Source of the DNA: Dunaliella salina
Lineage: Eukaryota > Chlorophyta > Chlorophyceae > Chlamydomonadales > Dunaliellaceae
Length of the DNA: 51,941 nt
Direction: 5' to 3'
NCBI GenBank assembly: GCA_002284615.2
Contig: MU070153.1
Location: 59,750 to 111,690 of the forward strand
Under the pieces are notes generated by a model. That model made no database searches, had not been told where the DNA came from, and worked only from the letters and a program-made list of their open reading frames with translations. Below, one piece after another: positions 2 through 47,430 of the stretch (position 1 is the stretch's first letter; every line of letters begins with the position of its first letter). Made by a program: the position numbers and the translations under genes.

Positions 2-430
2 AGCAGCATGCTGCAAGTGCCGTAAAATAAAAATGGGCTGCAAAGTATTACGGCCAGGATAGAAACCGTTTTGCGTACCTGGAATTTTGTTCTTATCTCT
101 GCACCACCCTGTGACAACTTCCCTCAACACATTCGCGTACAGTCTGTACAGGGTACCACTAACGGCAAGCATGCGANAATTCCCTGGATCCACAACAGAG
201 CCCTTCTTGTAGAGAGGAGTAATTTTGGCTATTTTCCAGCAAGCAGGGATCTGAGCTTTCTCCATCATGGCAGCAAACAGACACGCAATGTAAGGAGCTA
301 AGACATTTATCCTATCTGTGCCTCTACCATTCACAGCTGGGACCCTTTTCACAGCATATTTAATGAGCGGAGCCGCAATAGCATCAAAACCAGGGGATGT
401 CCTAGCATTTAATCTTCGGATGTGCTCACA
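2..430 (-). CDS. Reverse transcriptase fragment of a non-LTR retroelement (partial, runs off the left edge)
   Basis: Reading the minus strand from about 418 to the left edge gives about 139 codons without a stop. The product has the order of non-LTR RT motifs 0 to 2a: SPGFDAIAAPLIKYA, then CWKIAKITPLYKKGS, VVDPGN, RMLAVSGTLYRLYANVL, and QNGFYPGRNTLQPIFIL. The catalytic aspartates lie beyond the window. One N falls in the codon after PGN. The frame stays open to about 430, where it meets the truncated 5' end of a plus-strand family A copy, so the N-terminal part is missing. The fragment looks little decayed and may belong to an active lineage. It is the only RT seen in the window; whether it drives family A is inference. 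Confidence 0.82.
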
Positions 431-444
431 AACAAGCTAACCTT

Positions 445-3400
445 GTGTCTGAAGATGCCTCACCTGCTGCTCGCACTGATATTGAGTGTGCCTGCTGCCA
501 AATACACAATTACTACCAAAGTTATGAAACTGGAACCTTATGCCATCCACTTCCTGATATGTATGTTTGTGATGTGTGCCACCGGACGTACCATTGGGAA
601 TGCATGAAGGAGCTTGGATGCTACTCGGATGAGCAGAGACAAGAAGTTGCAACAGCAACATGGGCATGTCGACATCGGGACGTCCCGCCTGTGCAAGCCT
701 ATCGCCATCGTCATCGGGACATCGGGACGTCCCGCCTGTGCAAGCCTAAATGATGCCCAACAAATTGAAAGACAGCAGCAGACTAAACAAGAACTCAGGA
801 GGGTCACTTGGAAACCTCTTGGGAATCAGAGGATTTACAGGAGACGTGGCCTAAATTTAAAGAGTGTTTGCTTAAGTTAGAAGCACAACAAAGCAAGCCT
901 ATCCTTTCAACACCCACGGCAGACTCTACCCTCTCGAATCTTGAAAGACAAGGCTTTGAAAAACCTAATGAAACCAATGTGTGGCAGCAAAAATTGGACA
1001 CAGAATTGCGCAACAAAATCACATTTGATATTGACCCCACTAATTTACAAGCAGACATAAAGCCTACAAGCTCATGCGAATATTGGCTGCGCGAGGTTGA
1101 CCTCGTGAAGTACACGGACCAGCAACCCCCTCATCCAGCACCATCAGACACAGGATCCCACAGCCATTCCCNTCCTACTCCATCCCCCCTCATTCTCCCA
1201 GAAATGTACACGGCGCACATGGCTTGCATATACAATACGCAAGGCAAATGTGTTGGTATGATATCGTCAAACCGCTTCCAAATCCTTTTCAGGGCTTTTT
1301 ATGGGGCCAAGCTTGCTGGCATGCACGATAAAATAACACCACCTCCAGGCAACTTTGCTACTGAGCTGCAAGGACTCCTTTCTTGCAAATCCATGCTTGA
1401 AAGAAAGTACTCTAGCAATAAGATCAAAGACTCTTTTTCACGAGCCCTTCCACCTCACATTCATACTGCCCTTCAAAAATGGGCTTGAGTAGCCCAAGAA
1501 AAAATGGCCTCCCCACTAGACCACAACCCACAATACCAGAATTATTGGAGTGCGGACTCCCGAGACACTCTTTTTGGTGCCATGCATAATGCCTTCTCAT
1601 CCAAATTNTCAGGCTTCTCAGTCTGCCATCCCATTTATGACGAGGGAATCATGACCCAAGCTTTGCAACATGCCATTTACTCTGCCATTCTCAACACAGA
1701 GGCCACTGCTACATTCATGTTCCTTCCGGCTTGGAATAAGATGATATCCAACCCCTACTCCAAACTTTTCAATGCCTACCCCCACCTCTGTTACGAACTT
1801 GGAACCATACCTCGCAACAAACTTTGTTACAGCGCCACTCATTCCTGCCCTAACCAAGAGGTACCTTTACCTAAGCATACCTGGGGCCTTCGTATCTTTG
1901 CTGTTTGGAACATTGCAGCTCGAATCCATCTCGATAACCATAACAAAGACTGGCTACAGGGCCTGAAAGGAGGTTTGAAAGAAGCTACAGAGTGGAAGCT
2001 TGAGAGTGTCAGCAGCCACCCTGTCCTAAATCCCATGCATGCCCACATGCCAGGTTTCAATAAACTGGAACGCCTCCCATTTGACATACGACACGTCTCC
2101 AAGCAGCCTAATTATTCACACATGAGCATCCAAGGTACAGGCTTGATGCCCAGCCAATCCAGTACTCTCCTAACTCTTAAAGTTGCTGACTGGAGGACAT
2201 GGGCATACACAGATGGCAGCTGCCTTGNCCATAACGGTAAGCAAGAAATTGGAGCAGGCGTCTACTGCCCGTCCACTGACAGCAAGAATTTTGTAGAACC
2301 TAACGGTGCCGGGATCACTAAAACCATCACAAGAGCTGAATTAGCAGCAATTGCTGCTGCTATCCTCACCAAATATGCAGGTATTGCATCAGACAGCCTC
2401 ACCTCTTTCAATCAAATACGTAAACAGCTTCTCTATCCTGAAAGACATCTGAGGCATATCTAAGGAGACGTCCTTAAAATGATTTCAACGCTCATTAGGG
2501 ACTTCCGTACCAAATTTTGAATTTACAAAGTGAAGTCCCATGCTGGCATCGCTGGAAATGAATGTGCAGATGCCGTTGCAAAGCATCAGGCAAAGCAAGC
2601 CCAGAACTGTGTGGCGGACACCGAGATCCCAGGTGCAGGTCCTGGTGGAAATCCATTTACAAATGTTTTCTGGTTAGCCGAAGAAGAAAGAGTGCATGCT
2701 GCAGGTTCATCTGCGGGTCCACCACCCGCCCACAAGCTCGCCTATTTCCCCAATCTTCAAAATGCCCTCAAATCCCACATGCATTCTTAACACAAGCTTG
2801 GGTATGCCAATGCCAAAACAGGCTACTACTCTTACAATAAAAACTTATTACCGCAAGTAGATAGAAAAATCAGCAATACCTTCAAAAATATGCCCAACAT
2901 TTCTGTACCCATGAAGCATACCATCCTGCAGTACCGCACAGGCACCCTCTACAACCAAAAACATGCAGTACGTTTTAAAAGGTCAACTGATCCATCCTGC
3001 CCCCTACCAGGCTGCCATCACCTGGACAGCGCATTACGCATGCTCTCAGGCTGCCAAAACCATATCATCTCCAACATGAGAACTCGCCGCCATAACATTG
3101 CAGGCAGAATGATTACAAAAGCCCTCAGCAAATGCCCTGTAGGGGCAGGCCTAGTATACACAGACATACTAGTAATAAGCGATTTCAAGCTTGCTCAACA
3201 CAACCTCCAACTCCTTACACAAGCCAAACAGAACTTTACCTGCTTACTTCTTTCCTCGTAACCTTCCAGAGAGGAAAAGACTCAACTCCAGTCGACCAGA
3301 TGCTGTTTTGACCACCCCTTTTAATGCCAATCATACTTCAAACAGTGATTCTCGTACCCATTCCCATCACGCTTTGCGCAGCTCCTCACGGAGGACCACC

Positions 3401-3766
3401 AGAACTAGTCGCATGAGGCAACCCCATGAACTTTGTGCAAATGAACGCCATGTGCACCTAATAGAAATCAAGTTCTGTGAAGACACAAGGCCAGAGCATC
3501 AGTTAAACGCAGCAAAGCAGCAGCATGCAGACCTTTGTAAACTTATTAACGCTAAAGCTGTTACAATCCACCCTATTCTCCTGGGTGTAGGTGGAACTAT
3601 TTACACTGAGCATACCCTCAAGCAATTCAAACATCTAGGTTTGGATCACCAGCGTGCCACGAAGCTTGCTCAACAATTTCATGCCCATTCTGTTCAATAT
3701 GCCCACAAACTAGTCACCATCCACCGCGCATTGAAAACAATAATACTTTCCACAGCCAGGTTCTAG
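445..3766 (+). pseudogene. Decayed family A ORF: PHD, methyltransferase-like, RNase H, CCHC, RLE
   Basis: The pieces lie in several frames. The PHD finger is at 445-660, with the second cysteine changed (CCQIH) and the last CxxC broken by a local duplication. The methyltransferase-like domain and N-terminal half of RNase H are at 808-2463, with a TGA at about 1486. RNase H resumes at 2530-2790 after stops near 2461 and 2518. The CCHC knuckle (CPLPGCHH ... LSGC) is at 2890-3261. The RLE, with RPD and IEIK motifs, is at 3191-3766 after a frameshift. The same domain order is open in A7, so this is a dead copy and not a spliced gene. The stops do not coincide with splice sites. Confidence 0.8.
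671..747 (+). repeat. Direct duplication inside the A1 PHD finger
   Basis: A 30-bp block at 671-700 (starts gacatcgggacg, ends gtgcaagcct) is repeated at 718-747. A7 has a single version without the gacatcggga insertion. The duplication lies at the last CxxC of the PHD finger and destroys it. Confidence 0.75.
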
Positions 3767-3943
3767 AGCCAGGTGCTTCTAGTAACCCTTCAGATCCACA
3801 TTAGCATTCTCTTTTTCACACCTTGTGGTGGAGGGGGCACACGGCTCTTTTTTGAGCCAATGTGTCTCCTTTTCCTTGATTGATGTAGGGAGAGTTTCTC
3901 TGCCTACATAGCTTTTCTTTTCTTTCTCTTTTCTTTTTTTTTC

Positions 3944-4115
3944 TGGGGAGGGTTCTATTAGTAGCATGTTCTGGGATCTGTAAGTCTTGCAAGGCAAGAC
4001 GGTCTGCTCTGCCAATGTCTATGGAGGCAATACCTGTCCCAAGAGGGCCTTTGCTGATGGCTTTTAGGAGGATTCTGCTGGCAATATTGTGTCGCTCAGT
4101 TACCATACCAGACAT
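3944..4115 (-). pseudogene. A-prime fragment (post-CCHC to RLE linker), copy left of the tandem junction
   Basis: The minus-strand frame gives ITERHNIA-type sequence through to the NRTLP motif that precedes the RLE. It is identical to 6067-6238 and lies directly after the A1 pyrimidine tail. It shows that A1 and A2 end at the same point inside A-prime. Confidence 0.7.
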
Positions 4116-4116
4116 N

Positions 4117-6066
4117 GAAGCTTGAGAGTGTCAGCAGCCACCCTGTCCTAAATCCCATGCATGCCCACATGCCAGGTTTCAATAAACTGGAACGCCTCCC
4201 ATTTGACAAACGACACGTCTCCAAGCAACCTAGTTATTCACACATGAAGAATCTAAGGTACAGACTTGGTGCCCAGCTAATCCACTACTCTCCTAACTTT
4301 TAAAGTTGCTGACTGGAGGACATGGGCATACACAGATGGCAGCTGCCTTGTCCATAACGGTAAGCAAGAAATTGGAGCAGGCGTCTACTGCCCGTCCACT
4401 GACAGCAAGAATTTTGTAGAACCTAACGGTGCCGGGATCACTAAAACCATCACAAGAGCTGAATTAGCAGCAATTGCTGCTGCTATCCTCACCAAATATG
4501 CAGGTATTGCATCAGACAGCCTCACCTCTTTCAATCAAATACGTAAACAGCTTCTCTATCCTGAAAGACATCTGAGGCATATCTAAGGAGACGTCCTTAA
4601 AATGATTTCAACGCTCATTAGGGACTTCCGTACCAAATTTTGAATTTACAAAGTGAAGTCCCATGCTGGCATCGCTGGAAATGAATGTGCAGATGCCGTT
4701 GCAAAGCATCAGGCAAAGCAAGCCCAGAACTGTGTGGCGGACACCGAGATCCCAGGTGCAGGTCCTGGTGGAAATCCATTTACAAATGTTTTCTGGTTAG
4801 CCGAAGAAGAAAGAGTGCATGCTGCAGGTTCATCTGCGGGTCCACCACCCGCCCACAAGCTCGCCTATTTCCCCAATCTTCAAAATGCCCTCAAATCCCA
4901 CATGCATTCTTAACACAAGCTTGGGTATGCCAATGCCAAAACAGGCTACTACTCTTACAATAAAAACTTATTACCGCAAGTAGATAGAAAAATCAGCAAT
5001 ACCTTCAAAAATATGCCCAACATTTCTGTACCCATGAAGCATACCATCCTGCAGTACCGCACAGGCACCCTCTACAACCAAAAACATGCAGTACGTTTTA
5101 AAAGGTCAACTGATCCATCCTGCCCCCTACCAGGCTGCCATCACCTGGACAGCGCATTACGCATGCTCTCAGGCTGCCAAAACCATATCATCTCCAACAT
5201 GAGAACTCGCCGCCATAACATTGCAGGCAGAATGATTACAAAAGCCCTCAGCAAATGCCCTGTAGGGGCAGGCCTAGTATACACAGACATACTAGTAATA
5301 AGCGATTTCAAGCTTGCTCAACACAACCTCCAACTCCTTACACAAGCCAAACAGAACTTTACCTGCTTACTTCTTTCCTCGTAACCTTCCAGAGAGGAAA
5401 AGACTCAACTCCAGTCGACCAGATGCTGTTTTGACCACCCCTTTTAATGCCAATCATACTTCAAACAGTGATTCTCGTACCCATTCCCATCACGCTTTGC
5501 GCAGCTCCTCACGGAGGACCACCAGAACTAGTCGCATGAGGCAACCCCATGAACTTTGTGCAAATGAACGCCATGTGCACCTAATAGAAATCAAGTTCTG
5601 TGAAGACACAAGGCCAGAGCATCAGTTAAACGCAGCAAAGCAGCAGCATGCAGACCTTTGTAAACTTATTAACGCTAAAGCTGTTACAATCCACCCTATT
5701 CTCCTGGGTGTAGGTGGAACTATTTACACTGAGCATACCCTCAAGCAATTCAAACATCTAGGTTTGGATCACCAGCGTGCCACGAAGCTTGCTCAACAAT
5801 TTCATGCCCATTCTGTTCAATATGCCCACAAACTAGTCACCATCCACCGCGCATTGAAAACAATAATACTTTCCACAGCCAGGTTCTAGAGCCAGGTGCT
5901 TCTAGTAACCCTTCAGATCCACATTAGCATTCTCTTTTTCACACCTTGTGGTGGAGGGGGCACACGGCTCTTTTTTGAGCCAATGTGTCTCCTTTTCCTT
6001 GATTGATGTAGGGAGAGTTTCTCTGCCTACATAGCTTTTCTTTTCTTTCTCTTTTCTTTTTTTTTC
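4117..6066 (+). mobile_element. Family A copy A2, tandem duplicate of the A1 3' half
   Basis: The sequence from 4117 repeats 1995 onward with an offset of 2122-2123, through the A1 tail and into A-prime up to about 6238. The first ~200 bp differ at roughly a dozen sites; from about 4310 onward I see no difference. Both copies share the same stops and frameshift (RNase H 4653-4913, CCHC 5013-5384, RLE 5314-5889). The left junction is a single N at 4116. This is either a recent tandem duplication with gene conversion or an assembly artefact. Confidence 0.75.
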
Positions 6067-8180
6067 TGGGGAGGGTTCTATTAGTAGCATGTTCTGGGAT
6101 CTGTAAGTCTTGCAAGGCAAGACGGTCTGCTCTGCCAATGTCTATGGAGGCAATACCTGTCCCAAGAGGGCCTTTGCTGATGGCTTTTAGGAGGATTCTG
6201 CTGGCAATATTGTGTCGCTCAGTTACCATACCAGACATGGTTGAATTTTTACATCCTGATAAGATGTGAAGGGCTCTGTCAAGTTCCCCACAGAGGGGGC
6301 ATTGTGGGCTGGTGGAAATTTTGAAACGCACCACGTGTGTTTTGATTGAAGAGGGTACCTGTGCGATATTTAAAAGTGTTTTGCCTCATTTTGAAAGAGA
6401 GTGCTGACAGGGTCCAGAAGGCATTGCTGATTTTTTTGTGGATGTTGGGGAGTAAACTCTGGTAGAAAGAGTAGTATCCTGTGTTGGTGTTGGCCTTTCC
6501 AAGTCTGTGTTTTGCATGCATGTGTTTTCGTAAAGCATCATGGAGGTTGGAGAAGTGTTTGAGCTTTACGGCAGGTGGGTTCAGACGTCTAGACGCATTT
6601 GCATGAGTGCAGGAAGTTTCCTCAAAGGCAAGCAAGGTGGTGTCATGAAAAGGATTGCCTTCAGGGTTTGCAAATGGGAAGGTTATGTCTGTGTCATTAT
6701 TCTGAATGGCCTGATGCTTACCAATGGCATCTGTGCATCCGTTGCCAATAATTCCAGCATGAGATTGAATCTTGAACAAATGGATAGGGGTAGGTGAGGT
6801 GCATATAAGTTGTATGATTATCTCGAGGATGTGGCCCCGGACGTGCTGGTGATGAAGTTCTGGGTAGAGTATTTGCTTTCTGATCTGTTCTAGAGAACAA
6901 AGGCTGTCAGTGGCAATGCAACAATAGCCTAGGAGAATGGCAGCTGCTATTGCCGCCAGTTCGGCTCTAGTGATAGTATGAGTGATTCCTGCTCCATTCA
7001 GTTGGACATGGTTGGTGCCGTCACTGGCGGGGTGGTAGACCCCTGCGCCAATCACTTGTTTACCATTGTGTGCATGGCAGCTGCCGTCTGTGTATGCTCA
7101 TTCTCTCCAGTTTTCAACTTTGCGTACCAGTTAAGGGCTGGATGATGTGAGTAGTGAAAGAGTTTGTTGGCTTTGTGTGGTACTGTGAGGTTTGTTGGTG
7201 GGCTGAAGGTAGTTTTTCACATGTATTAAAGCCAGTTTCAATTTCTGGGTGTCTTGGATTAAGGACTGGGTCGATGCTAATGTTTCTTTCCTGCCATCTT
7301 GCTTCATGGATGTCTTGTTTCAGGCCTGTGAGCCAATTTGAATTATTGTCATTGAGGCGGACTCTTGCGGCGGTATTCCAAACAGCAATTATTTGTAGGC
7401 TCCAGGAGTGGCATGGAAGGTCAATGTCTTGGCTTACCCAGAAGGGGGGGTTGGCATAGTTGAGTCTTATTGAGGTTATGGTTCCCATTGTGCGACAGAA
7501 GTGAGGTAGGCATTCAGGAATTTCGAGGATGGATTTGTGCTCATAGGGCCTCCCCAGCTTGGTAAGAACATGAAGGTTGCCGTGGCGCGGCTTTGTCGCA
7601 TGGCAGAAAAAATGGCATGTTTGAGAGTAAGGTACATCACATCGACATTGTAGGTAGGGTGGCATATTGAAAATCCTGAGAACTTGGACGAGAGGCTGTT
7701 GTGGATTGCTCCAAAGACCCTATCTCGAGGGTGTTCACTCCAGTAGCTGAGGTGGCAGGGGTTGTAGTCCAGGGGAGAAGCCATTTTTTCCTGTGTGAAA
7801 AGAGCCCATTTCTGCATGGCAGTGTGGATATGGTTTGGTAGGATGCACATGTATGAGTCCTTGATTTTCTTACTTTGCTGCATTTTGCTGTTGAGGGTTG
7901 AGCGCGAGAAAAGACCCACGAGCTCAGAGGCAAAGCTGTGGGGTGGAGGTTGTATTGTATTGTGGATCCCATTGTCTTTGGCTCTGTTGAAAGCAGTGTT
8001 GAGGATATTGATGCGCTCCGGGGTTAACATTCCTTTGCATCTTCCGTCTGTGCCATAAATGCATGCCACTTGTTTGGAATAGACTTGTGGTAGCACCAGA
8101 GGTGGTATTGGTGGCATGGAGGGGGAGTGGGTAGCATCTGCTCTTGGCATGGCTTTCATACGAGGGGCCTGTGAGCACTA
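6067..8180 (-). mobile_element. Diverged relative A-prime, minus strand, truncated at both ends
   Basis: Minus-strand frames give a protein clearly related to family A but diverged throughout. The methyltransferase-like part lies at 8159-7476 with SICHPTYNVDVM and FMFLPSW, continuing at 7665-7114 with LQIIAVWNTAARVRL. RNase H is at about 7110-6279, and the CCHC knuckle (CPLCGELDRALHILSGC) at about 6300. The start of the RLE region ends at 6067, where the A2 tail begins. Frameshifts separate the pieces and a TGA precedes AYTDGSC, so it is inactive. A second copy of its left end lies at 3944-4115. No RT motif is seen, as in A7. Confidence 0.8.
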
Positions 8181-13826: not shown

Positions 13827-14281
13827 NNNNNNNNNNNNNNNNNNNNNNNNNNNNNNNNNNNNNNNNNNNNNNNNNNNNNNNNNNNNNNNNNNNNNNNNNN
13901 NNNNNNNNNNNNNNNNNNNNNNNNNNNNNNNNNNNNNNNNNNNNNNNNNNNNNNNNNNNNNNNNNNNNNNNNNNNNNNNNNNNNNNNNNNNNNNNNNNNN
14001 NNNNNNNNNNNNNNNNNNNNNNNNNNNNNNNNNNNNNNNNNNNNNNNNNNNNNNNNNNNNNNNNNNNNNNNNNNNNNNNNNNNNNNNNNNNNNNNNNNNN
14101 NNNNNNNNNNNNNNNNNNNNNNNNNNNNNNNNNNNNNNNNNNNNNNNNNNNNNNNNNNNNNNNNNNNNNNNNNNNNNNNNNNNNNNNNNNNNNNNNNNNN
14201 NNNNNNNNNNNNNNNNNNNNNNNNNNNNNNNNNNNNNNNNNNNNNNNNNNNNNNNNNNNNNNNNNNNNNNNNNNNNNNNNN
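13827..14281. other. Assembly gap (455 N)
   Basis: Run of N. Long open frames crossing it are artefacts. Confidence 0.99.
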
Positions 14282-15042: not shown

Positions 15043-15150
15043 TGTGGTGGAGGGGACACACAGCTCTTCTGAGCCAATGTGTCTCCTTTTCCTTGATTGA
15101 TTTAGGGAGAATTTCTCTGCCTACATAGTTTATATCTCCTTCTTGTTCAT
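15043..15150 (+). repeat. Tail-only copy of family A
   Basis: From gtggtggaggggacacacagc through gagccaatgtgtctcc and the hairpin (tttagggagaatttctctgcctacat) this matches the A1 3' end only. It is an extreme 5'-truncated copy within the host intron. Confidence 0.8.
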
Positions 15151-15372
15151 TTCTTTCGAGTACGCTTGAATTGCTGCAACAGCAAGAGCCGATTGTGCAC
15201 AGTCAGATAAAAAACTGTGATCAATGCTACATTGGGGCACAAGCCATATTTGGAAATCCTGTTAGATCTGTGGCTGGATTATTGTCCCAGATCAGATTGA
15301 AGCAGATCTGATCCAAGCAAGGTTCACTCAACTGATGTATCACACCAAATGATTTAGATGTATGCTCTGACT

Positions 15373-29896: not shown

Positions 29897-30797
29897 NNNN
29901 NNNNNNNNNNNNNNNNNNNNNNNNNNNNNNNNNNNNNNNNNNNNNNNNNNNNNNNNNNNNNNNNNNNNNNNNNNNNNNNNNNNNNNNNNNNNNNNNNNNN
30001 NNNNNNNNNNNNNNNNNNNNNNNNNNNNNNNNNNNNNNNNNNNNNNNNNNNNNNNNNNNNNNNNNNNNNNNNNNNNNNNNNNNNNNNNNNNNNNNNNNNN
30101 NNNNNNNNNNNNNNNNNNNNNNNNNNNNNNNNNNNNNNNNNNNNNNNNNNNNNNNNNNNNNNNNNNNNNNNNNNNNNNNNNNNNNNNNNNNNNNNNNNNN
30201 NNNNNNNNNNNNNNNNNNNNNNNNNNNNNNNNNNNNNNNNNNNNNNNNNNNNNNNNNNNNNNNNNNNNNNNNNNNNNNNNNNNNNNNNNNNNNNNNNNNN
30301 NNNNNNNNNNNNNNNNNNNNNNNNNNNNNNNNNNNNNNNNNNNNNNNNNNNNNNNNNNNNNNNNNNNNNNNNNNNNNNNNNNNNNNNNNNNNNNNNNNNN
30401 NNNNNNNNNNNNNNNNNNNNNNNNNNNNNNNNNNNNNNNNNNNNNNNNNNNNNNNNNNNNNNNNNNNNNNNNNNNNNNNNNNNNNNNNNNNNNNNNNNNN
30501 NNNNNNNNNNNNNNNNNNNNNNNNNNNNNNNNNNNNNNNNNNNNNNNNNNNNNNNNNNNNNNNNNNNNNNNNNNNNNNNNNNNNNNNNNNNNNNNNNNNN
30601 NNNNNNNNNNNNNNNNNNNNNNNNNNNNNNNNNNNNNNNNNNNNNNNNNNNNNNNNNNNNNNNNNNNNNNNNNNNNNNNNNNNNNNNNNNNNNNNNNNNN
30701 NNNNNNNNNNNNNNNNNNNNNNNNNNNNNNNNNNNNNNNNNNNNNNNNNNNNNNNNNNNNNNNNNNNNNNNNNNNNNNNNNNNNNNNNNNNNNNNNN
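29897..30797. other. Assembly gap (901 N)
   Basis: Run of N followed by an AC-rich stretch. Probably hides one or more exons of the BAR-like gene. Confidence 0.99.
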
Positions 30798-33750: not shown

Positions 33751-34025
33751 CGTGCCACAAAGTTTTGCTCAACAAGTTCATGCCCATTCTGTTCAATACG
33801 CCCACAAACTAGTCTCCACACGCCGCGCTATTGAAAACAAGAATACTTCCCACTGTCAGGTTCTAGTGTCAGGTGCTTCTAGTAACCCTCCAGATCCACA
33901 TTAGCATTCTCTTTTTCATACCTTGTGGTGGAGGGGGCACACGGCTCTTTTTTGAGCCAATGTGTCTCCTTTTCCTTAATTGATATAGGGAGAGTTTCTC
34001 TGCCTAGGTAGTTTTTCTTTTCTTT
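33751..34025 (+). mobile_element. Family A copy A4 (last ~275 bp only)
   Basis: Starts within the last RLE helix (cgtgccacaaagttttgctc) and runs through the stop, gtggtggagggggcacacgg, the hairpin and the TTTTCTTTTC tract. Strong 5' truncation. Confidence 0.85.
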
Positions 34026-34790
34026 GAGCCTTCTACAAAAAACTAAAAAATAAAGTATACAGGAGGGTCCAGCCTGCATAACTTTTGGATGTCGTGTGTC
34101 AATCCGAATAAAAATTTTATATTCGGAACCCTGAGAACGAGAGGAATCGATTGATGTATGTTTGGATCCGATCGGAGAGGGTCGGGGGTGATGGGTGGCT
34201 GAGGGGGGTTCCGACTTTTTTGAATCCACTTCCAGAATTTTTCTGAGCCACTACTACAGGATTACAAACATATCATTGGATTACTCAGCTTGAGAACTGC
34301 CAATTTGCACCCTCTTTGGAGAAATTGGTAAAAGGGAGGGGGGTCTCTGTGCATGAATCAGAGTCAGTGCCACATGCCCATGGTGTAGGCTGCTGGGGGT
34401 GTGGAGGCAAACATGCAGCGAACAAATCCAAACTTCCATGATAGAGAAAACGTGTAATAAGTCCTTGCATGGTGAAGTCAGAAGCTCAATTTATAAACTC
34501 GCAAGCCAGTTGTGGGTGCCTGGGGGGGCAGGTTTGCATGGGTGTCCAATCCCCAGTTTTTGCCCCATAACTCTGCTCCAACCCAACATTTGATTGGGAC
34601 TATATGCAGGTGACAGGGAATTTAAGGAGGAGCAAATTTATACCCTTTTTGTCTGGATTGGGGCACTGGAAGGGGGGGGGTGGGAGTGGTGGGTGGGTCA
34701 GGGGGTCCCCGCCAAAAATTTTGACATGACGTCCTTTACTTTCTTTTACCCTCCTGATGTGCAATATATTAAAATCATCATGTTCAACAA

Positions 34791-34911
34791 TTAGCATTCC
34801 CTTCTTCATACTTTGTGGTGGAGGGGGCACATGGCTCTTTTTTGAGCCAATGTGTCTCCTTTTCCTTAATTGATGTAGAGAAACTTTCTCTGCCTACATA
34901 GTTTTCCTTTT
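34791..34911 (+). mobile_element. Family A copy A5 (tail only)
   Basis: Begins at ttagcattcc, eight bases past the A stop codon region, and ends at gttttccttt. Only the untranslated tail is present. Confidence 0.85.
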
Positions 34912-35653: not shown

Positions 35654-36700
35654 GAAAGAAAAGAAAAGAAAAAGAAAAAAGAAAAACTACGTAGGCAGAG
35701 AAACTCTCCCTACATCAATTAAGGAAGAGGAGACACATTGGCTCAAAAAGAGCCGTGTGCCCCCTCCACCACAAAGTATGAAAAAGAGAATTCTAATGTG
35801 GATCTGGAGGGTTATTAGAAGCTTCTGGCTCTAGAACCTGGCTGTGGGAAGTATTCGTGTTTTCAATAGCTCGGCGTGTGGTGACTAATTTGTGGGCATA
35901 TTGAATAGAATGGGCATGAAGTTGTTGAGCAAGCTTCGTGGCATGCTGATGATCCAATCCTAGTTGTTTGAATTGCTTGAGGGTATGCTCAGNGTAAATA
36001 GTTCCACCTACACCCAGGAGGATAGGGTGAATTGTGACACCTTTAGCGTTAATAAGTTTACAAAGGTCTGCATGTTGCTGCTTTGCTGCGTTCAACTGAT
36101 GCTCTGGCCTTGTGTCTTCACAGCACTTGATTTCTATTGGGTGCACATGGCGTTCATTTGCATGGAGTTCATGGGGTTGCTTCATGCGGCTAGTTCTCGT
36201 GGTCCTCAGTGAGGAGCTGCGCAAAGCGTGATGGGAATGGGTAGGAGAAACACCGTTAGAAGTATGATTGGCATTAAAAGGGGTGACCAGAACAGCATCT
36301 GGTCGACTGGAGTTGAGTCTTTTCCTCTCTGAAAGGTTACGAGGGAAGAGGTAAGCAGGTAAAGTTCTGTTTGAGGCATGTGTAGGGAGTTGGAGGTTGT
36401 GTTGGGCAAGCTTAAAATCGCTTCCTATGTCTGCATAGACCAGGCCTGCCCCTACATGGCATTTGCTGAGGGCTTTTGTAATCATTCTGCCTGCAATGCT
36501 ATGGTGTTCAGTTTTCATGTTGGAAATGATATGGTTTTGGCAGCCTGAGAGCATGTGTAGTGCGCTATCCAAATGATGGCATCCTGGGAGGGGACAAGAT
36601 GGATCTGTTGACCTTTTGAAGCGTACTGCATGTTTTTGGTTGTTTAGGGTGCCTGTGCGGTACCGCAGGATGGTATGGTTGGGAACACTACATCCCATTG
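35654..36700 (-). mobile_element. Family A copy A6, 5'-truncated
   Basis: On the minus strand the frame 36698-35793 is open for 301 codons: LRYRTGTLNNQKHAVRF, the CCHC knuckle CPLPGCHHLDSALHMLSGC, NRTLPAY, the RLE motifs SRPDAVLV and IEIKCCED, and the terminal helices. The tail with hairpin and pyrimidine tract is at 35775-35654. The copy is 5'-truncated between RNase H and CCHC. One N lies in the RLE. It is younger than A1 since the frame is intact. Confidence 0.88.
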
Positions 36701-37209
36701 CATGCTAGTTGGTAAGGGCTGCCAGCAATCGACACTTGCATAAGGTGAGCAGGGTCTGTGATGACGCGGGGGGAAGAGACAGGCTGGGCATGGAGGCCCT
36801 GCCCCTCCCTCTCCCCATCCCTCTCCCTGAAGGGGCCTTCCTTTCGTTGGTTATGAAGTTGACCTTGCTATGAAAAACAACATCTCCAAGACGCTTATAA
36901 GAAAATTTGGTTTTTTTTCGACCAGATCCTTGAAAAATTTGGGTTTGACCGCATTTGGCATGCGCCTCCGGTGTTGGCCAAATCCTTGTATTTGGGAAAC
37001 CCGAGGGTTTCAACTTCCCTTCATAAGAAGGCACAGATTTCAGCCATTTTTCTTAAAAAGAATCATGAAACTGCAGCACCTTGCTCATAGTTTTACCAGA
37101 TTTGCAAGCTGCAGCTCCAGAGAACCAAACAGAAATAACAGAGTTAATCTGCACATGAACTTGATGGTGTGGCAGGTGCTGACAATGATGAGTGCGTCGG
37201 AAAGTGTGG

Positions 37210-42503: not shown

Positions 42504-45500
42504 AAAAGAAAAGAAAAGAAAAACTACGTAGGCAGAGAAACTCTCCCTACATCAATTAAGGAAGAGGAGACACTTTGGCTCGGAAAAGAGCCGTGTGCCC
42601 ACTCCACCACAAGGTATGAAAAAGAGAATGCTAATGTGGATCTGGAGGGTTGCTAGAAGCACCTGGTTCTAGAACCTGGCTGTGGGAAGAATTCTTGTTT
42701 TCAATAGCGCGGCGTGTGGTGACTAGTTTGTGTGCATATTGTACAGAATGAGCATGAAGTTGTTGGGCAAGCTTAGTGGCACGATGGTGATCCAGTCCTA
42801 GTTGTTTGAATTGCTTGAGGGTGTGCTCAGTGTAAATACTACCACCAACACCCATGAGAATAGGGTGGATTGTAACAACTTTAGCGTGAATAAGTTTACA
42901 TAGGTCTGCATGCTGCTGCTTTGCAGCTTTCAACTGATGCTCAGGCCTTGTGTCTTCACAGAACTTGATTTCTATCAAGTGCACATGGCGTTCATTCGCA
43001 TACAATTCATGGGGTTGCCGTCCACTCCTAATCCTGGTGGTCCCCCGCATGGACCTGCGCAAAAGGTGTTGTGTTTGAATGGAAGAAACATTGTGGGAAG
43101 TTGGCTTGGCATTAAAAGGGGTGATCAAAATAGCATCTGGTCGACTTATATTGAGTCTTTTCCTTCCTTGAAGGTTACAAGGGAAAAAGTGAGCAGGTAT
43201 AGTTCTATTTGAGGCATGTGTAGGGAGTTGAAGGTTATGTTGTGCAAGTTTGAAATCGCTTCCAATGTCTGTGTAGACCAGGCCTGCTCCTACAGGGCTT
43301 TTGCTGAGTGCTTTTGTAATCATTCTGCCTGCGATGTTATGGCGTTCAGTTTTCATGTTGGAGATGATATGGTTCTGGCAGCCTGAGAGCATGTGGAGTG
43401 CGCTATCCAAGTGATGGCAGCCTGGAAGGGGGCACATTGGGTCAGAAGACCTTTTGAAACGGATTGCATGTTTTTGATTGTAGAGGGTGCCTGTACGATA
43501 CTGCAGGATAGTACGCTTCATGGGTATGGAAATGTTGGGCAAATGTCTGAAGGCATTGCTAATTTTCTTATCCACTTGCGGTAATAAGTTTTGATAGTAA
43601 GAGTAGTAACCAGTTCTGGCATTGGCATATCCAAGTTTGTGTTTAGAATGCATGTGGGACTTGAGAGCATCTTGAAGATTTGGGAGATAGGTGAGTTTAG
43701 GGGCAGGTGGGGGACCCGTAGATCTGCCTGCAGCATGCACTCTTTCTTCCTTGGCTATCCAGAAAATATTTGTAAATGGATTTCCACCAGGACCTGCAAC
43801 AGGTATCTCGGTGTCTGCCACACAGTTCTGGGCTTGCTTTGCCTGATGCTTTGCAATGGCATCTGCACATTCATTTCCAGCGATGCCAGCATGGGACTTC
43901 ACTTTGTAAATTCGAATTGTGGTATGGAAGTCTCTAATGAGCGTTGAAATCATTGTAAGGACGTCTCCTTGGATATGCCTCAGATGTCTTTCAGGATAGA
44001 GAAGCTGTTTACGTATTTGATTGAAAGAGGTGAGGCTGTCTGATGCAATATCTGCATTTTTGGTAATGATAGCAGCAGCAATTGCTGCTAGTTCAGCTCT
44101 AGTGATGGTTTTAGTAATCCCGGCACCGTTTGGGTCTACAAAGTTTTTGCTGTCAGTGGACGGACAGTAGACGCCTGCTCCAATTTCTTGCTTTCCATTA
44201 TGGACAAGGCAGCTGCCATCTGTGTATGCCCATGTCCTCCAATCAGCAACTTTGAGAGTTAAGGGAGTTCTGGATTGGCTGGGCACGAAGTCTGTATCTT
44301 GGGTACTCGAATGTAAATTTCTAGGGTGTTTAGAGACATGTTGTTTGTCAAAAGGGAGGCGTTTCAGTTTATTGAAGCCTGGCATGTGAGCATGCATGGG
44401 ATTTAGGACAGGGTGGCTGCTGACGTTTGTCAGCTTCCACTGTGTGGCTTCNTTCAAATCTCCTTTCAGGCCCTGTAGCCAGTCTTTGTTATGATTGTTG
44501 AGATGAACTCGAGCTGCAGTGTTCCAGACAGCAAAGATACAAAGGTCCCAGGTATGCTGAGGTAGAGGTATCTCTTGATTAGGACATGATTGAGGGGCAC
44601 TGTAAACAAGTGTTTTGCGAGGTATGGTTCCAAGGTTATAACAGAGGTGTGGGTAGGCAGTGACAAGTTTGNAGTAGGGGTTGGTTATCATGTTCTTATT
44701 CCAAGCCGGAAGGAACATGAATGTAGCGGTGGCTTGTGTGTTGAGAATGGCAGAGTAAATGGCATGTTGCAAAGCTTGGGTCATGATTTCCTCGTCATAA
44801 ATGGGATGGCAGACTGAGAAGCCTGAAAATTTGGATGAGAAGGCATTATGCATGGCACCAAAAAGAGTATCTCTGGNGTCCGCACTCCAATAATTCTGGT
44901 ATTGTGGGTTGTGGTCTAGTGGGGAGGCCATTTTTTCTTGGGTTACCAAAGCCCAATTTTGAAAGGCAGTATGAATGTGAGTTGGGAGGGCTCTTGAAAA
45001 AGAGTCTTTGATCTTCTTGCTAGAGTACTTTCTTTGAAGCATGGATTTGCGGGTAAGAAGTCCTTGCAGCTCAGTGGCAAAGCTGCCAGGAGGTGGTGTC
45101 ATTTTCTCGTGCATGCCAGCAAGCTTGGCTCCATAAAAAGCCCTATAGAGGATTTGGAAGCGGTTAGGAGATATCATACCAACACATTTGCCTTGTGTAT
45201 TATATATGCAAGCCATGTGTGTCTTGAAAATTATTGGGAGAATGAGGGGTGTTGGAGTAGGGGAGGAACGGCTGTGGGATCCTGTGTCAGGTGATATTGG
45301 ATGAGAGGGTTGCTTGTCTGTGTATTTTACAAGGTCAACCTCANGCAGCCAATATTNGCATGAGCTTGTGGGTTTTATGTCTGCTTGTGGGTTAGTGGGG
45401 TTTGTATCAAATGAGATTTTGTTGCGCAATTCTGTGTCCAACTTCTGCTGCCATACACTGGTTTCAGTAGGTTTTTCAAAGCCCTGTCTTTCCAGATTTG

Positions 45501-47430
45501 AGAGGGTAGAGTCTGCCGTGGGTGTTGAAAGGTTAGGCTCGCTTTGTTGTGCTTCAAACTTGAGCAAACACTCTTTGAATTTAGGCCACGTCTCCTGTAA
45601 ATCCTCTGACTCCCAAGAGGGTTTCCAAGTGACCCTCCAGAGTTCTTGCGTAGTCTGTCGCTCTCTATCAGTTTTTTGGGCATCATTTAGGCTTGCACAG
45701 GCGGGGCATGCCCATGTGTTAGCCGTTGCAATTTCTTGTCTTTGCTCATCCGAGTAGCATCCAAGTTCCTTCATGCATTCCCAATGGTACGTCCGGTGGC
45801 ACACATCANAAATATACATATCAGGAAATGNAGGATCNAAAGTTTCTGTTTCATAACTATGATGGTAATTGCATATTTGGCAGCANGCACACTCAATATC
45901 AGTGCGAGCAGCAGGTGAGATATTTTCATGTACAAGGTTAGCTTGTTTGAACAGTGGCAGGGCCCATTTTTCAATGATNATGGGTGCGTAATGGGTATGG
46001 NATTGTACTTGAAGGTGGGTGGGGGAGTTTGGTTGCTCTTTCTTGTTNTCTGCATATATTCTCCAATCATCTATGTGGGTAATATCTAAATCATGATAGA
46101 AGATAGAACTGATAGCATGGCTAGCAGTAGTNTCTTTAGCAAGTTTCTCGGCTGTCTCTCTNCTATAGTTCCAGATTTTTGGGCCTTGGGAAGGCGAGCG
46201 TAGAGAGTGGATGGCTGGGGAAACGATCTCTCTGTCTGTGTGGAGCAATTGTTGCCTCTTCTTTCTGGGTCCGTTTGTTTGAGTGTCTCGGCAGTGTGGA
46301 ATATGAGTTTGTGTCTGAGCATTAAAACAATTACCTGTCTGGTGTTGGTGGTTAGTGCTTGGGGTGTTGGACCGTGTAGGGGTATGGTGAGCGGTGCTTA
46401 GGCATCCATGTGAGCTGCTATTATTTGGGGTATCCTGGCTGAATTGGGACATGAAAGAAGGGGTATTTCTCAAAGCTGAACGCGTGCGTTTGCTGGGTNG
46501 CCCTTCAACAGTAGTATTTAGTATGGCCAGATCCTGGGTATTCAAACTTGTAGTGAGTCTGCCTGTAGACTGGTGGAGTATTTGTGTGGGTGTAATGCTG
46601 AGTGTAGCANTGGAGCGAGATCTTTTGCTGAGAGGCTCCTCAGGTGATTGCATTTCCATGGCATCTGCGACAGGTTGTGTTCCAGGGGAATTTATAAGTG
46701 AGGGGTGATTGACTGTACGCCTGAGTCGGCGTCCGGTGTGTTCATGGGTGTAATAAGATTTGGAGCGGGGCTGTGGTGGTGGCACTGCTTGAGTGGGAGG
46801 GATGAGGCTGTGTTGGGGGTTTGATCGTGGGTTAACCTGGGTGTGGGAAGGTTGTTCCCCACCCATGCTGGTGTTGGTAAGACCGCTCACATGTGTGTTG
46901 TTGATACAACGGTAAGCTGGAAGGGTATTTACTTCCGTGCTTTTGTAGGCAATGATCTTTTGGATTGAGGATGTGTTCAATTCTTGCTGTGGGGCAAGGT
47001 TGACAAGAGCTGCCAGCCTGTTAAGTGCAATTTTACATTTGTTGTTCACCTTGGGGTGTTTAGCCTGAAGTTGAGAGACTGAGATGATGTGAGTTTTGCG
47101 ACGAGATGTAAGCTCATGTATCCCGCTGATTCCCATATTTAGCAGAGGTTGCATAATGCAGGTGATGAGAGTAGCGAGGTTATGAGGGGGTGGTTTGTGC
47201 AGGGTGAGGGCTTCACAAATATGCTCTAGTTCCTCCTTGAACACGCTTGTGCCATTTTTCATGAGATGGAGCTTGCTGGAATGGATGCTAGTTAGCTGGC
47301 GAGCGCGCATGTTATAGTTGAGCTGACGTTTAATGTGCAGATTTGTTCCTTTTCGATTGGTTTCAAAATCAGCAATGTTTTCTGGTATTTGAAAGCTGTA
47401 CATGTAACCCTCAAAAAGCAGACCAATTTT
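42504..47430 (-). mobile_element. Family A retroelement A7, longest copy
   Basis: The element contains the 1590-codon ORF and, after the stop, a ~110-bp tail with gtggagtgggcacacggctc-type sequence, the hairpin (ctccctacatcaatt / tacgtaggcagag) and a CTTTTC tract ending at about 42504. The 5' end is not defined; B2 sequence begins about 50 bp upstream of the ATG. I found no target-site duplication by eye. Confidence 0.8.
42631..47403 (-). CDS. RT-less retroelement protein: PHD, PCIF1-like domain, RNase H, CCHC, RLE
   Basis: The ATG at 47403 opens 1590 codons with about 15 ambiguous ones from single N. Residues 1-180 are unknown; 180-440 are Ser/Thr/Pro/Gln-rich. A C4HC3 PHD finger lies at about 500-567 (CQIC, DVCH, HWEC, WACPAC). 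Residues 836-960 match the PCIF1-type N6-adenine methyltransferase fold, with CHPIYDEEIM at 865-874 in the place of NPPF and FMFLPAW at 895-901. RNase H follows with D1062, E1104, D1122, D1181. The knuckle is C1324, C1329, H1337, C1342. The PD-(D/E)XK endonuclease has D1423 (SRPD) and E1478-x-K1480 (IEIK). No RT motif is present. RLE would nick target DNA; RNase H would remove RNA template. Role of the methyltransferase-like part is unknown. Confidence 0.85.
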   Translation of the reverse strand: MYSFQIPENIADFETNRKGTNLHIKRQLNYNMRARQLTSIHSSKLHLMKNGTSVFKEELEHICEALTLHKPPPHNLATLITCIMQPLLNMGISGIHELTSRRKTHIISVSQLQAKHPKVNNKCKIALNRLAALVNLAPQQELNTSSIQKIIAYKSTEVNTLPAYRCINNTHVSGLTNTSMGGEQPSHTQVNPRSNPQHSLIPPTQAVPPPQPRSKSYYTHEHTGRRLRRTVNHPSLINSPGTQPVADAMEMQSPEEPLSKRSRSXATLSITPTQILHQSTGRLTTSLNTQDLAILNTTVEGXPSKRTRSALRNTPSFMSQFSQDTPNNSSSHGCLSTAHHTPTRSNTPSTNHQHQTGNCFNAQTQTHIPHCRDTQTNGPRKKRQQLLHTDREIVSPAIHSLRSPSQGPKIWNYXRETAEKLAKXTTASHAISSIFYHDLDITHIDDWRIYAXNKKEQPNSPTHLQVQXHTHYAPXIIEKWALPLFKQANLVHENISPAARTDIECXCCQICNYHHSYETETXDPXFPDMYIXDVCHRTYHWECMKELGCYSDEQRQEIATANTWACPACASLNDAQKTDRERQTTQELWRVTWKPSWESEDLQETWPKFKECLLKFEAQQSEPNLSTPTADSTLSNLERQGFEKPTETSVWQQKLDTELRNKISFDTNPTNPQADIKPTSSCXYWLXEVDLVKYTDKQPSHPISPDTGSHSRSSPTPTPLILPIIFKTHMACIYNTQGKCVGMISPNRFQILYRAFYGAKLAGMHEKMTPPPGSFATELQGLLTRKSMLQRKYSSKKIKDSFSRALPTHIHTAFQNWALVTQEKMASPLDHNPQYQNYWSADXRDTLFGAMHNAFSSKFSGFSVCHPIYDEEIMTQALQHAIYSAILNTQATATFMFLPAWNKNMITNPYXKLVTAYPHLCYNLGTIPRKTLVYSAPQSCPNQEIPLPQHTWDLCIFAVWNTAARVHLNNHNKDWLQGLKGDLXEATQWKLTNVSSHPVLNPMHAHMPGFNKLKRLPFDKQHVSKHPRNLHSSTQDTDFVPSQSRTPLTLKVADWRTWAYTDGSCLVHNGKQEIGAGVYCPSTDSKNFVDPNGAGITKTITRAELAAIAAAIITKNADIASDSLTSFNQIRKQLLYPERHLRHIQGDVLTMISTLIRDFHTTIRIYKVKSHAGIAGNECADAIAKHQAKQAQNCVADTEIPVAGPGGNPFTNIFWIAKEERVHAAGRSTGPPPAPKLTYLPNLQDALKSHMHSKHKLGYANARTGYYSYYQNLLPQVDKKISNAFRHLPNISIPMKRTILQYRTGTLYNQKHAIRFKRSSDPMCPLPGCHHLDSALHMLSGCQNHIISNMKTERHNIAGRMITKALSKSPVGAGLVYTDIGSDFKLAQHNLQLPTHASNRTIPAHFFPCNLQGRKRLNISRPDAILITPFNAKPTSHNVSSIQTQHLLRRSMRGTTRIRSGRQPHELYANERHVHLIEIKFCEDTRPEHQLKAAKQQHADLCKLIHAKVVTIHPILMGVGGSIYTEHTLKQFKQLGLDHHRATKLAQQLHAHSVQYAHKLVTTRRAIENKNSSHSQVLEPGASSNPPDPH

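Follow-up and report, generated by a model that had tools for sequence, protein, structure and literature searches.

A probable Dualen/RandI-like LINE copy with a PCIF1-like methyltransferase fold in Dunaliella salina

In a stretch of 51,941 nucleotides from Dunaliella salina (contig MU070153.1, positions 59,750 to 111,690; hereafter the window) an open reading frame (ORF) of 1590 codons encodes an RNase H, a restriction-like endonuclease (RLE) and a fold resembling the N6-adenine methyltransferase (MTase) PCIF1, and no reverse transcriptase (RT) is visible in it. How did a retroelement frame come to contain a methyltransferase and no RT? The first-pass annotation had placed the MTase where the RT should be; its observation was correct and unusual, but its explanation for the missing RT was wrong, the RT having been lost by ordinary truncation. 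Taken as a whole, the ORF is probably a 5'-truncated copy of a Dualen/RandI-like long interspersed nuclear element (LINE), in whose full-length protein the MTase-like fold would be a binding module of the ribonucleoprotein (RNP) and in which the motif HPIY is probably catalytically dead or altered.

Anatomy of the open reading frame

By Pfam, the ORF contains PCIF1_WW (PF12237) at amino acids (aa) 774-904 and RNase H at aa 1059-1188, the RLE is recovered with its profile, and an RT is absent from the Pfam matches up to an E value of 10. The nearest named protein matches lie within Dunaliella salina gene models, as pieces that cover 4-22% of the query at 73-86% identity. The parts of the copy are:

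42631..47403, minus strand: ORF of the first-pass annotation, 1590 codons, of which codons 1 to about 14 are flank
42504..47361, minus strand: LINE copy with a truncated 5' end, extending from its 5' junction through the (TTTTC)n tail
46636..47361, minus strand: post-RT connector, homologous to aa 1067-1283 of the relative P0004
45655..45888, minus strand: PHD-like zinc finger, aa 506-583 (weak in the domain search, 70.7 bits with the family profile)
44431..45246, minus strand: predicted PCIF1/CAPAM-like methyltransferase fold, aa 720-991, with the Pfam stretch at 774-904
44797..44808, minus strand: HPIY, aa 866-869, at the position of the catalytic NPPF of PCIF1
43840..44229, minus strand: RNase H domain (Pfam), aa 1059-1188
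42694..43461, minus strand: zinc knuckle and RLE, aa 1315-1570
42524..42630, minus strand: 3' untranslated region (UTR), predicted to form two hairpins (fold z -3.99 including stop codon and tail)
42504..42523, minus strand: T-rich (TTTTC)n tail, which differs between copies

The positions taken here to be the D, E, D, H and D of RNase H are invariant in an 18-row alignment. Between 44452 and 46610, 16 scattered single N lie inside the ORF, compared with 10 in the remaining window; they perhaps reflect ambiguous calls that arose from collapsed copies.

PF12237 is reported to be a CAPAM-like methyltransferase and not a WW domain (PMC7641849). A Foldseek search with aa 570-1050 alone returned six PCIF1 entries, followed by weak matches that are largely other S-adenosylmethionine (SAM)-dependent methyltransferases, and in a second structural comparison (VIA) enzymes such as RlmJ and M.TaqI ranked after PCIF1. 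Together with the Pfam match, these structure comparisons support the PCIF1-type fold suggested at first, as a predicted fold; a diverged RT palm hidden in aa 570-1050 is rejected on the same matches. The alignment covers PCIF1 417-668 only. The helical domain of PCIF1, which serves in cap recognition, was not among the matches, which is no proof of its absence, the aligned range beginning at PCIF1 416-417.

The reverse transcriptase and its loss

Among 23 relatives, the RT lies N-terminal of the MTase within one protein in P0009, P0010, P0011, P0014, P0016 and P0020-P0023, so that the MTase does not occupy the place of the RT. An apurinic/apyrimidinic endonuclease (APE)-type domain precedes the RT in P0014 and P0022, and P0004 contains APE and RT together with an MTase that is beyond the reach of Pfam and scores 250.8 bits with the family profile. 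P0023 combines its PCIF1-like domain, RT, PHD and RNase H with a partial C5 cytosine DNA methylase (PF00145, E 1.7e-10).

For a query with the RT alone (P0004 420-1160) the best 120 of 134 matches were analysed. An MTase-like fold reaches at least 20 bits in 96 of these 120 RT relatives, in 91 of the 94 with RNase H and in all 88 with RLE, the profiles for RNase H, RLE, PHD and MTase having been made from 18 rows of A1, one family, an MTase-bearing source that leans in favour of co-occurrence. Where both are found, the MTase stands ahead of the RNase H without exception. RNase H occurs without an MTase match in P0136, P0137 and P0139, the latter two being arthropod proteins. In most of the fold-less relatives (22 of 24) the sequence after the RT match is shorter than 720 residues and could not hold an entire MTase region placed as in P0004; the remaining two are P0136 and the sea-spider protein P0137. 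A single protein, P0088, unites Josephin, APE, RT, PHD-like finger, PCIF1_WW (27.7 bits, under the Pfam cut-off; 196.9 bits with the family profile) and RNase H. Josephin-type cysteine proteases are present in several RT relatives. PF12237 is absent from the precomputed Pfam lists of Haematococcus proteins, in many of which the family profile detects a diverged form. In the RT tree, built without a named Dualen reference, the window family stands among APE- and Josephin-bearing proteins, many of them green-algal. A PCIF1/CAPAM-type fold is apparently a standing part of Dualen/RandI-like LINEs.

The same genome (284.9 Mb in 1403 contigs, the window lying on contig C718) gave at least 41 matches to the family, a lower bound from 29 scored first-look candidates, and 30 loci were retrieved. 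Parts or the whole of the domain order recur in the 29 other loci and in relatives on separate contigs; the element is multi-copy and its order no local chimera, as had been annotated. Directly upstream, RT homology overlapping the RT domain of P0004 (638-917) was found in 12 of the 29 non-window loci (L002, L004, L007, L008, L010, L011, L013, L015, L016, L023, L027 and L030), a weak match of P0004 582-708 at 22% identity in L022 being left out of this count. The loci carry at most 1500 bases of flank, and the other 17 are no proof that an RT is absent. One of four upstream stretches examined, L032, contains an open RT stretch of 571 codons with the motifs RGTIQGD and FADD, and ahead of it a separate open stretch that is the tail of an APE-type endonuclease with SDHVPL. 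Joined with L011 it forms a copy of the window family on contig C928 that has RT, the RLE region and, of APE, the C-terminal end. On contig C102 lies a related element (L035 and L043) in which about 7.8 kb span, one after another, APE, RT, connector, PHD region, MTase, RNase H and RLE. APE and RLE accordingly belong to one element: RLE is present in the window, the APE end with RT and RLE on C928, and a whole APE with RLE on C102. A search of this genome for APE gave 149 matches; RT homology follows the APE in six of the eight loci retrieved (L035-L038, L040 and L041). The RT pieces in L036-L038 and L040 are 73-81% identical to the RT of L032, which indicates that close APE-bearing kin of the window family exist. 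Downstream, L035 and L038 were followed, and the stretch L038/L044 proved to be a mosaic in which the 3' part of another copy intervenes. In L036 one element's 3' end (positions 1-1134) is shortly followed by the next element's APE region (1507 onward), a near-tandem arrangement of LINE copies.

The homology of the window copy to other copies begins at the single base 47361 (19 loci, representing 16 distinct copies), which marks the 5' junction and leaves the first 14 or so codons of the ORF as flank. The sequence before this junction ends in TTTTGAA, and after the (TTTTC)n tail at the 3' end comes TTTTGAAA; the pair is a candidate target-site duplication of 7-8 bp, suggestive only because the tail itself is T-rich. 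Copies of the family are truncated at about aa 15, 216, 350, 361, 486, 1287 and 1545 (216, 350 and 361 in L005, L006 and L009; 486, 1287 and 1545 in copies of the window). Such a scatter is expected if target-primed reverse transcription is incomplete, but not of an RT-less subfamily. Where 3' ends were inspected they are common to the copies: the stop codon (altered in one copy, L024) is followed by about 107 bases in which two hairpins are predicted, and then by a T-rich tail that varies; for the window copy none of 200 shuffles folded equally well. A common 3' end with varied 5' breaks is the signature left by target-primed reverse transcription when copies are cut short on the 5' side. The 3' end recurs at 95-100% identity in 40 scored places (of 1838 candidates), which suggests recent movement of the family.

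Further copies in the window are:

430..3944, plus strand: copy A1, truncated at about aa 486, with a 3' end as in the ORF-bearing copy
4117..6067, plus strand: partial second copy of A1, in a 2122-base direct repeat that is 99.4% identical
6068..8135, minus strand: relative that has diverged (48-54% identical) and includes MTase and RNase H regions
35657..36704, minus strand: copy truncated at about aa 1287
33751..34025, plus strand: copy truncated at about aa 1545

The direct repeat (1995-4115 and 4117-6238), which includes part of A1, is either a recent duplication or an assembly effect. Two short copies, 34790-34911 and 15043-15156, consist of the LINE 3' UTR alone; they may be extreme truncations or SINE-like (short interspersed nuclear element-like) elements that borrow the 3' end, a kind of borrowing for which Chlamydomonas SINEX/RandI is listed as a case (PMC3747384). 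ORFs listed on several frames across the N runs at 13827-14281 and 29897-30797 are gap artefacts.

From this anatomy, the full-length protein would have the order APE, RT, connector, PHD finger, PCIF1-like methyltransferase fold, RNase H, zinc knuckle and RLE, and the element would move by target-primed reverse transcription from its conserved hairpin 3' end with the (TTTTC)n tail. Reverse transcription of the window copy would have stopped just behind the RT, leaving a frame that is RT-less but open.

Catalytic motif and competing explanations

The motif position is readable in 130 proteins. The canonical form, taken as [DNSH]PP[YFW], is present in three of them (P0168-P0170, with NPPF), PCIF1-like proteins that are 410-694 aa long and show neither RT nor RNase H by Pfam, and in none of the other 127 sequences, the window copy having HPIY. 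These 127, which include 24 Haematococcus rows (NVPA), rows from an NPEY-rich query and some short proteins in which no RT was seen, comprise 45 with [DNSH]Px[YFW] (37 of them NPEY), 9 with [DNSH]PPx, 15 with [DNSH]Pxx and 58 others. As proteins with intact NPPF, P0168, P0169 and P0170 are candidates for cellular kin and for the source of the retroelement domain.

In an RT tree of 83 rows, made with a quick method after thinning 121 rows (Haematococcus NVPA rows beyond six and most motif-less rows were dropped), NPEY is scattered and three motif classes change at least 20 times, so that NPEY is probably old and was often lost. The root is insecure: the outgroup is one arthropod row on a long branch, P0137 and P0139, two of the three arthropod rows, not having qualified. 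Around the motif, P828, L829, D845, F848, G849 and N961 are at least 95% conserved in 117 full-length rows. The median ratio of nonsynonymous to synonymous substitution (dN/dS) among same-genome copies is 0.27 for the MTase region (27 copies), 0.20 for RNase H (22), 0.25 for RLE (26), 0.32 for the N-terminal part (18), 0.35 for the linker (27) and 0.37 for PHD (26). Mutations in the NPPF of PCIF1 are reported to inactivate or reduce the enzyme (PMC10544176, PMC6318281), and Drosophila PCIF1 is described as catalytically dead yet still binding the polymerase tail (PMC9916840). Motif loss, a fold under selection and these two precedents together favour a binding module with dead or altered catalysis. 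The fold would then be kept by selection as an RNA- or cofactor-binding part of the RNP, placed between RT and RNase H and presumably acting in cis, while the catalytic tetrapeptide drifted many times from a widespread NPEY; in the HPIY-bearing window family catalysis is probably dead or altered.

Several points weigh against this account. In the window family, the four upstream stretches are interrupted by frame breaks or pass into N or unrelated sequence. A copy that is both full-length and fully open from end to end was not found for this family, and of its APE only the C-terminal end was seen, the N-terminus not having been found in the four stretches. The complete C102 element has frame breaks as well, and its MTase region shares only about 33% identity with that of the window family. 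With its 16 ambiguous bases, the ORF of the window may be a composite of several copies. The dN/dS values are filtered (dS 0.15-1.5, at least 60 codons), come without a formal test and are blurred by dead copies. Finally, retention of NPEY in distant branches of the RT tree argues that the motif itself is selected there, so that catalysis of some sort would be possible.

This last point leads to the strongest alternative, that the full-length element N6-methylates adenine, close to the cap or at internal sites, in its own RNA or cDNA, for protection, translation or the marking of a new copy, the window family being one lineage with its activity lost or changed. Its anatomy and truncation are those of the preferred account, and the two overlap. 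The NPEY of many separate branches, the conserved neighbouring residues, purifying selection on the MTase region and the methyltransferases known from retrotransposons (PMC5890265) speak for it; against it stand the absence of the canonical motif from all 127 sequences, the inactive NPPF mutants and the dead Drosophila precedent. An active, non-canonical enzyme in NPEY lineages is therefore judged unlikely, although a serious minority possibility. Slightly more doubtful is a wider proposal: a whole clade of LINEs with APE and RLE might possess a built-in enzyme of the PCIF1 type, with NPEY as the ancestral motif, which acts on adenines of the element's own RNA or cDNA during target-primed reverse transcription, methylating them or binding them SAM-dependently, and which repeatedly turned non-catalytic, for example in the window lineage. 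If true, this would be a LINE with its own epitranscriptomic writer.

Domestication of the truncated ORF as a host gene, an endonuclease-methyltransferase, would account for 1590 open codons in a truncated copy, but the copies around it are truncated too and have the LINE 3' end in common, and a recent insertion accounts for the open frame, 3' ends elsewhere being up to 99% identical; it is very improbable. Slightly more improbable still is the first-pass proposal of an RT-less element, non-autonomous or two-component, with the MTase in place of the RT: the frame is indeed long, open and without RT, but this proposal is rejected on the RT directly upstream in 12 of 29 sister loci and in single proteins of relatives, RT-bearing relatives being what the annotation itself had named as grounds for abandoning it, on the varied truncation points and on the common 5' junction of the window copy at 47361. 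A chimera of a PCIF1 gene and a LINE, by chance or assembly, to which the ambiguous bases could point, is next to impossible given the recurrence of the order in other loci and on separate contigs. In viral contigs, one scan with A1 gave 9 pattern matches, of which none was confirmed.

Relation to known elements and significance

The Dualen description of Kojima and Fujiwara from 2005 reportedly names RT, RNase H, APE, RLE and a cysteine protease, and no MTase. Other sources state that Dualen elements encode APE and RLE, with RNase H reported for Dualen/RandI (PMC4640811), that the hosts of Dualen/RandI include green algae (PMC8226300) and that green-algal RandI families end in 3' repeats other than poly(A) (PMC3747384). 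The family described here shares APE and RLE together with RT, the RNase H, green-algal hosts, and a non-poly(A) 3' repeat, here (TTTTC)n, and several of its RT relatives have a Josephin-type protease; it differs in the PHD finger and PCIF1-like fold between RT and RNase H. From PCIF1/CAPAM itself the domain differs in being embedded in a LINE protein, in the replacement of NPPF by HPIY, NPEY and others, and in an alignment limited to PCIF1 417-668. DNA methyltransferase (DNMT)-carrying LINE, DIRS and Gypsy elements of Symbiodinium and Klebsormidium likewise acquired a methyltransferase under purifying selection, but the enzymes there are C5 cytosine DNMTs and the elements are of other classes; DIRS elements with adenine methylases belong to another class too, and their enzyme is Dam-like, not PCIF1-like (PMC5890265). 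Drosophila PCIF1 is likewise kept without methylation, as a host protein that binds the polymerase C-terminal domain and not as part of a retroelement (PMC9916840).

A LINE with a PCIF1-like domain was not found described in the literature searched, which is no proof of novelty, subscription papers and Repbase lying outside the search. PCIF1 is described as a lone, eukaryote-only group (PMC8868631), and small phage enzymes have been placed nearest to it (PMC7824862). Methyltransferases have been recorded in a few retrotransposons (PMC5890265), and here a cap-methyltransferase fold is apparently a standing part of a LINE clade, located between RT and RNase H. PCIF1 thereby gains a large group of distant relatives whose active sites form a natural series of changes, and a testable question is raised: do such elements modify the 5' end of their own RNA, or read it?
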